Shown piece by piece: positions 17,225 to 64,000 of a stretch of DNA of 64,000 nucleotides. Where the stretch lies: positions 1 to 64,000 of the forward strand of contig JNDT01002413.1 in the NCBI GenBank assembly GCA_000697055.1, given 5' to 3'. A model generated the notes under the pieces. The model saw only the letters and a program-made list of their open reading frames with translations, had not been told where the DNA came from and made no database searches. A program made the translations under genes and the position numbers. This DNA is from Saksenaea vasiformis B4078. Lineage: Eukaryota; Mucoromycota; Mucoromycetes; Mucorales; Saksenaeaceae. How positions within the stretch are numbered: position 1 is the first letter of the stretch; every line of letters starts with the position of its first letter.

Positions 17225-17633
17225 CAAATGGAAAAAGGCGCCTATTGACAATGACAACTCCAAAGTTCCCCTGCTTTGTTTTGGTAACGCCAACTTTGGA
17301 CGTAACTCATATGGGGCAAAACCTGCCGGGTTGGCAAACCGTTGCAAAACGCTGATCAAACGAACAGAAGGCGAGGGACGTTTGGTGGTCATACAGGTCG
17401 ATGAATATTGTACGTCTCAAGTACGTTCGAAGTGTGGCGCGCGAGAATTGGACAACGTTGTGATCGGTGCAGATCAACATTTGCATAGCGTTCTGAGCTG
17501 TAGAAGTTGCGGAACTATTTGGCAAAGGGATCGCAATGCATCGCGAAATATACATGCTATTTCTATGTCATGTATCGTTTCTGGTGAGCGACCATTGATT
17601 AGCCGAACCGAACCACAGTCGCCACCACATTGA
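17225..17633 (+). pseudogene. Fanzor (eukaryotic TnpB-like) C-terminal relic
   Basis: An open frame of about 135 codons follows a splice-acceptor-like CAATAG at 17221-17224. It contains FGNANFGRNS, then VVIQVDEYCTSQ, a zinc-ribbon half CRSCGTIW, and the RuvC-III segment QRDRNASRNIHAI, ending at a TGA. This is the C-terminal layout of Fanzor/TnpB RNA-guided nucleases: RuvC-II, zinc finger, RuvC-III aspartate. The first zinc knuckle reads VRSKCG where family members have VCSKCG-type CxxC, so one zinc ligand is lost to Arg. No RuvC-I or N-terminal recognition lobe is found upstream in the same state, so I call it a relic. The frame itself remains open, suggesting fairly recent decay. Confidence 0.65.
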
Positions 17634-57469: not shown

Positions 57470-58129
57470 AAGGAATCTGTTGGTTGCATCATCGATGGCT
57501 GGCAGTAGTCGAATTGGAATACGTTCCTTTTTGGCGGCCTAAGTGAATGTGGCCACGTCGTGCAGCGTCATTGAGGTTGCATTGATAATCCACTAGTAGC
57601 GTTGCTCTGATGGAAGAATGTTGGTCGACCAATCCAAGGTAAAGGAGTCATTCAGTTGTCTATTAAACTTTAACGTTTTCCGCTGTAATCACTATTGTTT
57701 TATATAAATTACTATGGAGCACCTACTGTGGCCAAGGAATCTGTTGGTTGCATCATCGATGGCTGGCAGTAGTCGAATTAGAATACGTTCCTTTTTGGCG
57801 GCCTAAGTGAATGTGGCCACGTCGTGCAGCGTCATTGAGGTTGCATTGATAATCCACTAGTAGCGTTGCTCTGATGGAAGAATGTTGGTCGACCAATCCA
57901 AGGTAAAGGAGTCATTCAGTTGTCTATTAAACTTTAACGTTTTCCGCTGTAATCACTATTGTTTTATATAAATTACTATGGAGCACCTACTGTGGCCAAG
58001 GAATCTGTTGGTTGCATCATCGATGGCTGGCAGTAGTCGAATTAGAATACGTTCCTTTTTGGCGGCCTAAGTGAATGTGGCCACGTCGTGCAGCGTCATT
58101 GAGGTTGCATTGATAATCCACTAGTAGCG
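57470..58129. repeat. 264-bp tandem repeat, two and a half copies
   Basis: Copies begin at 57470, 57734 and 57998; the third is cut after about 132 bp. They are nearly identical (one g/a change seen). On the minus strand each full copy reads DSFTLDWSTNILPSEQRY, TAG, WIINATSMTLHDVATFT, TAG, AAKKERI(P/L)IRLLPAIDDA. This is a coding-like sequence with two in-frame TAG triplets. It probably duplicates an upstream exon of the neighbouring minus-strand gene. Confidence 0.85.
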
Positions 58130-58617
58130 ATGTGCCTCAGTAGGTATTTGCAAGGCGTCAAGAACAACACTGCATTTCAATGACTATTGATGATCAGAGC
58201 CCAATGTCCCCTAGTGTATCTTATACTTGTTGGTGGAAAATCAACAGGCAAATTGAAAACAAGTCTACAAAATAAACGCGACTTGTGAGCATCCATCCAT
58301 CGACTCAGGGCTGCGCAACTGGCGTGTGCGCAAAAAACCCATCCATGCAAGAAGGTCACATGCACGATGCCCTTCCATCAGAAATTGGTCTCTTCACCCT
58401 GAAAAGAAAGATATTTAGACAATGCCAGATTCTTCGCTTTTTATGCGGCTGCTGTACCAAACCTTGGTTGCCAACCTTCACCTATCCAGCGCAAAAAAAA
58501 AGAGATTTCTGTCATCCAGCAGACACAGTTTTTGATTTGGATTGGGGTTTAGGGGCTGACGTTGATGCGTTGATGCCAAGGTTGTAGCTGGCTCCATGGC
58601 AACGTCGCTATCATCCT
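58130..58617. other. Transposon interior without an intact gene
   Basis: Short frames only. The minus strand next to the fragment below stays open for about 45 codons (KEDDSDVAMEPATTLASTHQ) after an in-frame TAA. Confidence 0.35.
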
Positions 58618-59093: not shown

Positions 59094-60377
59094 TTACATA
59101 GGCTCTTTGTTTCGACACTTATCCCAGCACTTGTAAGAATGTGAAACGAAACCTTTGAAGTGATTTTTCTCCAAACTTTGGCAGGCTTCTGTGATTCTCT
59201 TTGATAAAGTGTCTTCCTGCAAAAACCTATGACGCTTTACCTTACTTTTCGCCACTGCCCAGAACTGTTCTATTGGGTTAAGCTCAGGAGAGTAAGTAGG
59301 AAGATACACACATTCATATCCTCGATATTCAATATATTTCTTTATGTTCTCATGCTTATGAATGGGTGCATTATCCATCACTATATAATGACCTTTCATA
59401 TGTGGATATTTGTCCATTTCGTCAAGAGTCGTTTTTAGGAAGCTAATGTAGTGACCTGTTACGGTTCCTGAGCTTATATATCCATCAACTTTTCTCTTCT
59501 TAGCTGGTCTTGGTTTTCTTACGCCGACTGCGATCAAACCTGAAGCAGAGATAGCACCCAGTATAGACGTTGTGTTTGCTCTCGTTGTAGGTCGGGTAAC
59601 AATAGCACGAGTACCTTTTGTAGACCAAGCTCTCGAACGCTTCATGTTGATATCAAAAGCAGACTCGTCAAGAAACACGCAATTCGCTAGGAAGTTCATG
59701 TCTGTCTTTTCCCATTGACAAACCCAATTGTATCGTTCCTTAATCTTTGCTGGACTATTTCTTTCAATAGAATGGAAATCGGCTTTTTTCAACGAAAGGT
59801 TGCATTCACGTCTCATAAAATTATAAACTGTGCTGCGAAAAACTTTAAGATCATGAAACCGTTTCAATAAATATTCGGTCACTTCAACAACAGCGGCAGA
59901 GGGATTAGCATCAATGAAATTGACAATAGATCTTTTATGCTCATCTGTAAGAATACACTTACGACCTACTCTGTTACAACTGTCAAAAATGTTGTCAGGG
60001 CATTTATTATACTGCTTAACCCATCTCTGTGCTGTTTGAATATGAATGCCCAACTGTTTTGCTGCAGCTGATGCACTCAGACACTTTTCAATCTTCAGAT
60101 CGAAAAATCTGGCCTTATCCAGGGCTGTATAACGTACGTAGTCCCGTTTTGTGTTCGCCTCCTTCATATGGACATCTTCATCTTTTGACTTCTCTACCAA
60201 CATTGGACAAGTCGAAGAAGACTCATCAGAAACTGCATTTTCCAAGTAATCAGTATGAGTGGCAATGGTTTCAACAATAAACTCATTCTGATCAACAGTG
60301 TACTCCATCGGTTCAGGACCACCATTCTCATCAACGACATTTCCATGCCCATCTTCATATAAAAATAACGTACTCAT
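59094..60377 (-). CDS. DDE transposase, IS630/Tc1-mariner-like
   Basis: A single uninterrupted frame of 427 residues. After an acidic N-terminus of about 80 residues there is a helix-turn-helix region (SASAAAKQLGIHIQTAQRWV) and a second HTH-like region. The catalytic DDE_3-type domain shows CVFLDESAFDINM (first Asp), HYIVMDNAPIHKHENIKKYI (second Asp) and LPTYSPELNPIEQFWAVAKS (Glu). The last block is the hallmark of Tc1/mariner-IS630 transposases. All three catalytic acids are present and no intron or stop interrupts the frame. It lies 65 bp inside the right inverted repeat, transcribed inward. A T-rich tract precedes the ATG. Confidence 0.92.
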   Translation of the reverse strand: MSTLFLYEDGHGNVVDENGGPEPMEYTVDQNEFIVETIATHTDYLENAVSDESSSTCPMLVEKSKDEDVHMKEANTKRDYVRYTALDKARFFDLKIEKCLSASAAAKQLGIHIQTAQRWVKQYNKCPDNIFDSCNRVGRKCILTDEHKRSIVNFIDANPSAAVVEVTEYLLKRFHDLKVFRSTVYNFMRRECNLSLKKADFHSIERNSPAKIKERYNWVCQWEKTDMNFLANCVFLDESAFDINMKRSRAWSTKGTRAIVTRPTTRANTTSILGAISASGLIAVGVRKPRPAKKRKVDGYISSGTVTGHYISFLKTTLDEMDKYPHMKGHYIVMDNAPIHKHENIKKYIEYRGYECVYLPTYSPELNPIEQFWAVAKSKVKRHRFLQEDTLSKRITEACQSLEKNHFKGFVSHSYKCWDKCRNKEPM

Positions 60378-60442: not shown

Positions 60443-60542
60443 CAAGGCAAACGCTCAGCAAGCGACGTGGTTTCTAAAAATACGACTTCCATTTCTGAAA
60501 AAACGAAATTGATTTTGATTGGCCAGCGACTTCAATTTTGAT
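60443..60542 (-). repeat. Right terminal inverted repeat
   Basis: Reverse complement of 54795-54894 with one mismatch. It lies just upstream of the transposase start, so it probably includes the transposase promoter. Confidence 0.85.
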
Positions 60543-61800
60543 CTATCTCTGCATAAGGAACTGTAGCTATGACTTCGTCGTTATTGGATGAATTAAATCT
60601 CCGGTACCCCCAAATATCACTGCTTCGAAGCGTGGCTTATGTTATATCCTACTTTTGGCAGGTGTGACGCAAGTACCCCTCGTGTAACGTACCCCCAAAA
60701 TTCACAAGATCCGTTATTCGTTTTTCGTTCGCATTAATATTTCAGGAGAAAGAAGTAAAAAAGTAATCTTTCGACAAGGATTGGCTGTCGGACATCTTCT
60801 ACTTTCCATATTGGGACGAGGTCCATCTTGGCGCACGATGTGGAATTTGACTTTCAGATGAATACTGCACGTGTGGAGGCAAACATTGGACGCATGGGAC
60901 CAGCTGAATGGGAGAGGCGAAAGTGAGATATTGCAGCAGAGCAAATACCAGAAGCTACACTGGATGACATAGTCTCAAGTAACAGCAATCTAGCTAATTA
61001 TGTGAGATGCCTGGCCGTGAAGTAGAAAACACTGCTCCATTAAGCGAAAAAGAGCAATTGAAAGCAAAAACGCTGCTTGCGGAATTCCGTGAATTGTTGT
61101 CACAAAGAAGCATTCGACACATCAGCGTAGATGAAAAGTTAAAAAAGGAGTTAACCTTGGGAAATGGCTATTTTCACTTCGATTTGGACAAAAAAAATCA
61201 TTAAATAGAGCGAAACGAGGAGAGTAAGACTATACTATTTTCCCGTTCTTAAGTTACATACTTCTTGAGATAAACGGAAAAAAAAACAGTATTTCGGTAA
61301 GGATTGGCTATCCAAGTATTCTTATCACCAGATTAATTCAAGGATTGTTTTTTAGCACTGACCACATTCAATCGGTGATGAGTTTTAGTGATATTGTTGT
61401 ATCCAGCAACTAGGCTTATATCAGGTTGGAATGATCGATTCTATTACCGATCCTCTATACAATGAACTTCTCCGAGATTATATGATCTGCTACGAAGAAA
61501 AGCTTGAGTAAAGAAACCTAACCTTAAACAACATGGAGAAACAACATCCCATTCGTCTATAATTACAGTCTAATCCATTTATGGCAGCAGACATTTCATT
61601 TAACAAAGAACACAGAACAGTCTCACTGAATCTTCCCGTTTTCTTTGTTCTTTCACTTCTAGTTTATTTGTTCTTTCCATAATTTTTTTTTAGTACTGAC
61701 CACATTTAATCAGATATTTATTAACAATCAGTTTTCACAGCATCTTTTCTTCCTCAACCTATCTTCCATTTGCTGTCTTCCCTTTGCTATCTTCCTGCTG
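60543..61800. other. Spacer between the TIR transposon and the Fanzor gene
   Basis: A short frame (61007-61204, MPGREVENTAPLSEKEQLKA) has charged, protein-like composition but no recognised domain. Two imperfect direct repeats of about 25 bp (tttagcactgaccacattca at 61352 and its variant at 61690) lie here. The last 70 bases are T/C-rich, as in a fungal leader. Confidence 0.4.
61352..61714. repeat. Two imperfect direct repeats upstream of the Fanzor gene
   Basis: tttagcactgaccacattca at 61352 and tttagtactgaccacattta at 61690, each after a T run, 338 bp apart. They may be promoter elements or traces of an insertion boundary. Confidence 0.45.
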
Positions 61801-64000
61801 ATGGAACCCCTTGCTGAAGAGGGACCCCCGCGACAACGGCAACGGCAACGGTATCGGCAGTCGCTGTTACCACGAACCGATGGGAGAACTTCAAGGGTTA
61901 CCAGAAAGCTGAAGCTTTCGAGCTTTCTCAATGAAGACTACAAGTATCTGCGAGTAAGGCTTCACTGCATTGGTAAATATGTTACTAAAATGCTATTGAC
62001 AGGAACAAATCCGTTTCGTTGCTGATGAGTATCATGTAATGAGGCGGGATGCGGTTAACCTGGTGAACCTACACTTGCGTCGCTGGGTCGAAGGACTAGG
62101 CACAGAAAGCACATTCGGCTTCCCGCCTATTACGACCAGAGCTTTTTGGGTTAAAGCTTTTCGTATCACAAATGATCGAGTCAGTAGGGTGTTAGGAAGC
62201 TTAGACGTAAGTGCATCCTACAATTTTATGGAGATGTCTAAAAGGAAGATATGTTGTTTAGCCTCAATGGCAACTAGACCTACTGGAGACGTTTATGTCC
62301 CACTTTTATCCCTTGCGCAGAAACATAGACGCTAACGAAAGTAAGATATATCTGCTCATATCCACCGACCGTTTCTAAATTGTATGCATAATAGACTTTT
62401 ATGAAGTCGTAGAAGTGCAAGGAGTATACATTCCAATTGCATCCGCTTTTGCCCCAGAAATCGTACAAAGTACTGTGATGATCGTATTATTGATGCATGG
62501 TTAACATTTGTACCTTATGTCAACAGATGTGAAGCGCCATTTGGTGATAAATGTTCCTGTGTTTCTGAAGTCTGTCTGCCGTGCCTATTTTCTTCAACTG
62601 AAGGAAAGGTTTGGAGGAAACCTTCCTGGAGGTGGACCAGCTCACCACGGTAAATAAGCATCTTTCTAAATGGCTGGTAGTCTCGCTTCTATTATTTATA
62701 GCTGACACGGCTGTAGCAAATATTCTGAACCATGAACCACTACAGGACGACATGTGGGAGGATATGCCTCATCGGGCAGAACTAGCAGAGTTTTACCAGT
62801 AAGCATGACATAAACTGTCCACAGTTGACTAATATTTATGCTACTACTACAGTGTTCAGCACGAACTATACGAACGTCATATGGCTGGTGTGGAAATCCA
62901 TAATTTGGACCCGGAAGACGATGAAGCTGTTCCGCTCATGTCACGCATTGTTCAATATATATATCACTTGCACCAATATAGTACCGAGTATAACGGCAAA
63001 ACCTGGTCATTACTACCAGTGATCAGTCATCAGATTGGTCATTTTCCCATACACACATCCGTACTGTGGTATCTGCTGCGAGACGCCTATTTGGCAAACC
63101 AACACGTTCCCGAGTCATTTCTGGTAACGCTCCATTTGTACAGTGCATGTAACTGACATTTTTCACTTTAGGGAGGACCGCAAGTCGGAGGACGAGTGAG
63201 ATACCTGCCTCTACAACAATTTGAGCTTCGTTGTCGCGACAGTGAGTGGAAAGAGGCACTTTGAGAAGAAATTTTCAACATCGATAAATGCCAAGCGAAA
63301 CGTCGACGATTTGATCCTGACCGTAAGCCATCATTCGCTTTAAGTCTATCATCTAATTGATTTGTTTTTAAAGATCATCAACCGGAACTACAGTTGGAGT
63401 TTGCGTATTACTTGCAAACTGATGGGGTATCGGTCTCTGTGCAGTTCGACCGCCGTCGCTCGGGTACGCCAATGGAAAGTTTACTACTACTTACTATGTT
63501 TGATTAGAACGATATCCATCTTCCAAACGAGATTTTCGGCTGCTTCCGCGAGAGATGGACCTGAGCACCTGGCAAGGAGGCATATATCATCTGAACAAAG
63601 AGCCTCATGGGCTAGATCAAGACCGATTAGCTCAGTCAAGAATTGTTGGCGTGGATCCAGGTATAAGTCAACTAACTATTTCATTGCCATGTCTAATATA
63701 TTGACAGGGATCCGATCGCTGTTCACAGCCGTAGATACAAACGAAGCTATGGACACGCCCGAGCTCCGCAACACTCATTCTGCCACGATCAGTAACAAAG
63801 AGTACCAGTGAGTTACAAATGTCCCCCTATTGTTGAGCTAATCCCAGCATTGGTAGATTGCGTTCGATGTTTACATGGTCGAAACAGAATGAACTGAAGT
63901 CTAGAACCACGGCCCAAATACAGCCACATTACGACTTGTTGACAAACAATCCTCCCACCGTTATGAGCGTACAAGGGTTTAAGGGATATATTGCCGCCTT
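61801..64000 (+). CDS. Fanzor-like RNA-guided nuclease (eukaryotic TnpB homologue), partial
   Basis: I join twelve exons: 61801..61953, 62003..62206, 62262..62340, 62395..62469, 62527..62649, 62702..62798, 62853..63123, 63172..63322, 63374..63463, 63508..63660, 63708..63807 and 63857 to the edge. All junctions keep phase, about 546 codons so far. The N-terminal lobe has YHVMRRDAVNLVNLHLRRW, KRHLVINVPVFLKSVCRAYF and HTSVLWYLLRDAYLANQHVP. RuvC-I follows: RIVGVDPG then IRSLFTAVDTNEAM, with the catalytic Asp. NKEYQLRSMFTWSKQNELKS comes next, and RuvC-II, the zinc ribbon and RuvC-III must lie beyond 64000. Fanzors cut DNA guided by an omega RNA usually encoded by the element's flank. An in-frame TGA (63262-63264) interrupts exon 8. 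A donor at 63242 joined to 63374 would skip it in frame. Confidence 0.72.

Follow-up and report, generated by a model that had tools for sequence, protein, structure and literature searches.

The right edge of the window (the whole stretch of DNA that was analysed, 64,000 bases in length, which is the start of the 247,464-base contig C662 in a genome of 38.7 Mb and 666 contigs) cuts through what is very probably a Fanzor1 gene. It forms part of a multicopy DNA element of about 5 to 6 kb and, by analogy with the family, would encode a protein guided by an omega RNA. The host is a mucoralean fungus and a near relative of Apophysomyces: its NAT10 gene shares 89% identity with Apophysomyces ossiformis and no more than 77% with other named species among the best 120 matches listed. 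Mucoralean Fanzor1 genes, their association with MuDr elements, Fanzors with ten exons, and families with a constant 3' and a variable 5' part are all described by Bao and Jurka in 2013 (available part of PMC3627910). New here are a divergent 18-exon family with a C3H zinc ribbon and a MULE transposase stretch that stands beside Fanzor1 in one copy, with pieces of it in others. As this diverged family offers at least one open copy and 20 right ends with as many natural flanks, its omega RNA, target motif, and mobility are directly testable.

Gene structure and coding state

A sequence-only reading of the window had placed a twelve-exon gene at this edge and had expected its remainder beyond it. 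Indeed, the contig goes on past 64000, and the rest of the gene is readable there. The twelve exons are real (exons 1 to 12), but the full spliced gene, at 61801-65081 (+), has 18 exons and 17 introns and comprises 807 codons, with the stop at 65079-65081. The introns measure 44 to 57 nt; 16 of them are GT-AG and one is GC-AG (64737-64789), and introns 12 to 17 all lie beyond 64000. Likewise, the claim that the small introns can be joined into a continuous reading held, with its exons and introns found in place.

61801..64000 (+): in-window part of the Fanzor1 gene, exons 1-12 of 18 (spliced model and contig continuation)
61801-61953, 62003-62206, 62262-62340, 62395-62469 (+): exons 1-4
62527-62649, 62702-62798, 62853-63123, 63172-63322 (+): exons 5-8
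63374-63463, 63508-63660, 63708-63807, 63857-64018 (+): exons 9-12, exon 12 being cut by the window edge at 64000
61954-62002, 62207-62261, 62341-62394, 62470-62526 (+): introns 1-4 (dynamic-programming parse and copy alignment)
62650-62701, 62799-62852, 63124-63171, 63323-63373 (+): introns 5-8 (same methods)
63464-63507, 63661-63707, 63808-63856 (+): introns 9-11 (same methods)
63262-63264 (+): in-frame TGA, codon 365 of the window copy (model projected on 22 aligned copies including the window)

The automatic parse against diverged copies gave exons 1 to 11 and the beginning of exon 12, while exons 12 to 18 were placed by hand and checked via the substitution phase in 21 sequences. These phases pointed to the GC donor at 64737 in place of a GT donor at 64741, which puts exon 17 in the wrong frame. 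The parser's final intron at the window edge (63960-64003) was spurious and was dropped once the contig beyond 64000 had been read, and a hand-drawn intron 4 (62475-62526) gave way to the computed one (62470-62526) because it disrupted the frame. A bacterial-style ORF reading was of little use, as the gene is spliced.

Short introns are easily invented, and a splice model of this kind might be an artefact in which chance open stretches have been joined. We give this explanation next to no credence, as it is contradicted by both the splice-site and the codon-position statistics. A GT or GC donor and an AG acceptor were jointly kept in 186 of 192 intron tests in 16 divergent copies and in 44 of 46 tests in five close copies. 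For single sites in the divergent copies, GT was present at 170 of 181 donors and AG at 189 of 191 acceptors, compared with 145/406 (GT) and 100/248 (AG) for unused intronic dinucleotides. When the window copy was compared with C525, 808 codons had 91, 57, and 271 differences at positions 1, 2, and 3 (11.3, 7.1, and 33.5%), and 211 of 688 intron sites differed (30.7%). Furthermore, dN/dS values for 36 pairs among nine copies ranged from 0.07 to 0.39 and were mostly near 0.1, the maximum being that of the pair C624-C552, whose dS is only 0.057. The reading frame is under purifying selection. The artefact explanation is also at odds with the intact frame of one copy (C420) and with the fact that the spliced product is homologous to a Fanzor encoded without introns.

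The gene had previously been described as mostly open. The frame of the window copy is open apart from one codon, but this codon, 365, is an in-frame TGA, a premature stop that probably keeps the window copy from yielding a full-length protein. The TGA is absent from C420, which is 98% identical to the window copy and has no stop, indel, or broken splice site across all 18 exons. Six copies span the start codon to the right end (window, C420, C525, C456, C624, and C552), and C420 is the only undamaged one among them; C525, C456, C624, and C552 are each interrupted by one or more stops or frame-changing indels.

Active-site motifs and relatives

63648..63709 (+): RuvC-I GVDPG, with the catalytic Asp D464 at 63654-63656, interrupted by intron 10
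63708..64000 (+): exons 11-12, after RuvC-I
contig 64494-64496 (+): RuvC-II E663
contig 64515-64526 (+): zinc ligands CSNC (C670, C673)
contig 64831-64842 (+): zinc ligands CHHH (C741, H744)
contig 64944-64946 (+): RuvC-III D763 in WNRD

The GVDPG motif and the LFTAVD strand that follows it, both reported earlier, are present where they had been read, and the RuvC-II Glu, the zinc ribbon, and the RuvC-III Asp anticipated downstream were all found past 64000. The motifs run GVDPG, DEYKTSK with CSNC, CHHH, and WNRD, which is the Fanzor order. D464 is Asp in 16/16 copies that hold the codon, six further copies being without this stretch. Seven active-site and zinc residues were compared in 16 to 17 copies each: four are invariant, and the other three (E663, C670, and C741) are replaced in a single copy each, by G, Y, and Y, respectively. 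The RuvC-II Glu stands six residues ahead of the zinc ribbon (Ealt; E663-YKTSKM-C670 in the window copy) and is Glu in 15 of 16 copies. According to the available part of PMC10711439, DPG and a Glu six residues before the ribbon occur together in <1% of TnpB-family homologues and are typical of Fanzors. The spacings (201 residues between D464 and T666, and 17 between H744 and R762) lie within the published Fanzor/TnpB motif, D-X(125,275)-[TS][TS]xx-[C4 zinc finger]-X(5,50)-RD (PMC3627910, in part). However, the finger reads C3H rather than C4, as its second knuckle is CxxH and not CxxC.

A comparison with TnpB profiles, proposed together with the first reading, had a mixed outcome: the OrfB (TnpB/Cas12f) zinc-ribbon domain PF07282 was found (E 6.3e-5, 23.5 bits), but below the curated cut-off of 26.3. 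The sole solved structure matched by sequence is the Fanzor1 of Parasitella parasitica (PpFz1; PDB 9cf0-9cf3), and this match is weak (E 0.0017 with a single sequence and 0.027 with a profile). PpFz1 has the same Fanzor1 RuvC/zinc-ribbon module, and DE(F/Y)(R/K)TS before the ribbon aligns, although just about 80 residues are alignable. The genome also encodes a 450-aa Fanzor without introns (C525:134565-135917), to which the C-terminal half, residues 365-780, aligns with a BLASTP E of 4e-19 (for that one comparison alone) and an hhalign probability of 98.6%. No outside relative of the whole protein was found at E ≤ 0.001 among 5390 candidates, and a 135-aa C-terminal piece had one relative, P0001 (205 aa; E 1.7e-3). 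Viral contigs, scanned with two N-terminal peptide patterns, and GTDB contigs, scanned with six C-terminal patterns, contained no relative. The proposed Fanzor-type identity is upheld by the ordered RuvC-I, -II, and -III motifs and ribbon, with PpFz1 as the one structure match and PF07282 below its cut-off. Judged by sequence against this structure, P0001, and two Fanzors of its own genome, the gene is a divergent Fanzor1 and its product a candidate nuclease.

Searching the genome with the PF07282 profile gave at least 137 zinc-ribbon matches of TnpB/Fanzor type at E ≤ 0.001 (388 candidates, 150 scored); 131 rows were marked as above the cut-off, some only together with in-frame neighbours, and two matches that were read are both Fanzor-like. 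The 18-exon family is missing from this list because its ribbon is split by introns. As 42 Fanzor loci are reported for Spizellomyces (PMC10432273, in part) and about 150 CMe-1A copies for Cyanidioschyzon (PMC3627910, in part), the load observed here is large, though not unprecedented. A second Fanzor-type C-terminus lies in the window at 17230-17633 (+), with a PF07282 match at 17385-17552; it looks decayed, as arginine replaces the first zinc cysteine (read by eye).

Right end of the element and candidate omega RNA

The Fanzor1 gene sits on a multicopy DNA element inserted at many unrelated sites, and its size is about 5 to 6 kb in copies whose left limit could be placed. Genome matches numbered 28 stretches for 61801-63600 and 26 for 64701-65700, in both cases with the gene's own copy included and some contigs counted repeatedly. 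Family identity is about 75 to 99% across the N-terminal part, and shorter, more diverged pieces occur besides. Twenty right ends were read (C420b and C637, from which the end is absent, were excluded), and 15 of them terminate in precisely the 15 bases GTGACTTAAGTGCAC, with slight deviations in C382, C275, C638, C666, and C170. In the A-type copies (window, C420, C319, C382, and C331), CGnAG follows the right end in 5/5; after the remaining 15 ends comes TG in 15/15 and TGG in 13/15, with other DNA beyond. When the right flanks of 19 stretches (17 anchored at the end; C170 and C420b anchored too early) were compared pairwise, only the window and C606 had common sequence, in opposite orientation. 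This 274-base sequence (C606 260-528, contig 65216-65489) stands beside two different Fanzor insertions, and no third copy was seen among the genome matches listed. The match in C344 begins at about 64927 although the contig continues, and has an 11-nt gap inside; this copy therefore seems to consist of the last exon and the right end only.

contig 65082-65197 (+): conserved noncoding end of the element

Compared with C525, the last 61 coding bases (stop included) contain 4 differences and the next 61 contain 11, followed by 16 in a stretch of 36 and by 1 in the final 17 bases. The consensus fold of 18 sequences has the hairpins GCCCC/GGGGC and GGCAGU/ACUGCC. Among its 34 pairs, 0 were changed on both sides, 6 had one-sided changes that still pair, and 11 were broken in one or two sequences. 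Single-sequence folding gave a z-score of -1.82, with 11/200 shuffles folding equally well, and Rfam had no match in contig 64000-66000. Both the zinc ribbon and an omega RNA had been expected just past the window; the ribbon is there, but the omega RNA stands as a prediction, for which the conserved hairpin-forming 3' end is the candidate. Spizellomyces SpuFz1 is likewise a multicopy Fanzor1 element and has an omega RNA; in contrast to the spliced gene described here, it is a single ORF in a locus of roughly 2.1 kb with inverted repeats (available part of PMC10432273).

Variable 5' sides and possible modes of movement

At least three types of 5' side occur on one 3' module. Type one comprises the window and C620, type two comprises C420, C525, C456, C552, C537, C316, and C261 (C231 and C435 were added solely for 341 and about 410 common bases), and type three comprises C421, C624, C540, C368, and C276. 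Types two and three have about 660 bases upstream of the start codon in common, and C428 only 40. The left limits are ragged, grouping around -1545 or -2700 to -2790 relative to the start codon, and the right end is fixed. Upstream of Fanzor1 in C421, on the same strand, a 473-codon open stretch contains MULE (E 8.9e-8) and Mutator transposase (E 6e-6) domains, both above cut-offs, and related pieces are present in C624, C276, and C368.

60713..60949 (+): internally deleted MULE transposase gene remnant, 5' of the window Fanzor1
60542..60712 (strand not assigned): end of another repeat (CACAAGATCC), adjoining the Fanzor element

Two parts of the MULE gene in related copies are matched within the remnant: the leader (at 60713-60828) and the C-terminal region (at 60834-60949). 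Other DNA follows the same repeat end in C401, C402, and C536; these were rejected as empty sites, being ends of another repeat.

Third positions of C420 and the window copy differ at 14 of 51 sites in exon 1 and at 14 of 757 in all other exons together, the first 41 coding bases of C420 equal those of C316, and its upstream sequence belongs to the second 5' group. C420 is accordingly a recombinant that unites a different 5' end with a window-type body. It is conceivable, though we see only a modest chance of it, that the Fanzor1 gene and the RNA-coding right end form a 3'-anchored unit that recombines with various MULE-derived 5' parts, perhaps at its own RNA-guided breaks, C420 being a recombinant caught in this state.

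Related arrangements appear in the available part of PMC3627910. Like the present family, MCi-2 of Mucor circinelloides has a near-identical 3' Fanzor region on several 5' regions and no recognisable TIRs; it differs in its 11- to 12-bp target duplications and partial Crypton transposase, whereas here no duplications were found and the 5' partner is a MULE. ROr-4, PBl-3, and MCi-4 also carry Fanzor1 in Mutator-type elements of Mucorales, and that source gives them TIRs, 9-bp duplications, and no encoded MuDR transposase. In contrast, the present family includes a copy, C421, with a MULE transposase stretch, and its terminal repeat, if any, is short and imperfect. The Fanzor1 elements CRe-2 and CRe-3 of Chlamydomonas are also multi-exon, with 3'-biased copies, but they are Helitrons with ten EST-supported exons, compared with 18 here (PMC3627910, in part).

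Going by the family, the spliced protein of about 800 residues would bind an omega RNA to which the 3' end of its own gene and the right end of the element both contribute. The last ~15 to 20 nt of this RNA would act as guide, copied from the DNA flanking the insertion, and the protein would cut guide-matching DNA beside a short motif. Once the empty site is cut, repair could favour retention or copying of the element. As introns are retained, movement would take place as DNA rather than via spliced RNA.

The unit might instead be moved by MULE cut-and-paste transposition, with Fanzor as cargo, an explanation that we rate as possible but doubtful. The MULE/Mutator stretch of C421 and its relatives in three other copies are in line with it, as are the published MuDr-type Fanzor1 elements of Rhizopus, Phycomyces, and Mucor (PMC3627910, in part). 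Furthermore, CTTATGTCAC, which marks the left limit in both C421 and C525, is close to the inverted right end, CTTAAGTCAC; since the best match of C421 lies at its left limit and the same CTTATGTCAC recurs in C525, a short imperfect terminal repeat is possible. However, when the full upstream regions of ten copies were searched, the closest matches to the inverted right end had 4 to 6 mismatches in 15, no better than shuffles (average, 4.5 to 4.9), and in five copies, whose left ends are uncertain, right flank and left limit shared no 9-mer (≤1 mismatch). Two 8-nt duplication candidates (C624 at -3051 and C456 at -2246) were rejected as lying away from the left limits, and a 10-nt candidate in the window (65202/58708) as lying beyond a mariner element and another repeat. 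The raggedness of the left limits next to a fixed right end also speaks against MULE transposition. One-ended, 3'-anchored copying of a rolling-circle-like kind would account for both the fixed 3' end and the variable 5' ends, and we hold it in similar, tentative regard. It agrees with the near-constant right end, which has a subterminal hairpin in the single-sequence fold, with the several 5' architectures on one 3' module, with the truncated match in C344, and with the 3'-biased copies of Chlamydomonas Fanzor Helitrons (PMC3627910, in part). Against it, no Rep/helicase gene was seen among the few ORFs scanned with Pfam. The right terminus, moreover, is presumably not a canonical Helitron end.

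It is improbable that the family has been domesticated or has decayed, with a protein that is no longer a nuclease and copies that ride passively on MULE elements. Damage in five of the six start-to-end copies and the internal deletion in the window's MULE part would fit such a state, but several observations argue against it: the seven active-site and zinc residues are nearly constant, diverged copies have dN/dS values near 0.1, and C420, so similar to the window copy, has an open frame.

Several other features neighbour the element. An uninterrupted Tc1/mariner-type transposase ORF of 427 aa (59094-60377 (-); DDE_3, E 5.3e-30) lies upstream of it, and what reads by eye as the start of a RAD2/XPG-like gene lies at contig 65593, about 395 bases beyond its right end. 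A 264-nt unit is repeated three times in tandem at 57470-58261 of the window, with copies one and two identical and the third 65% identical.
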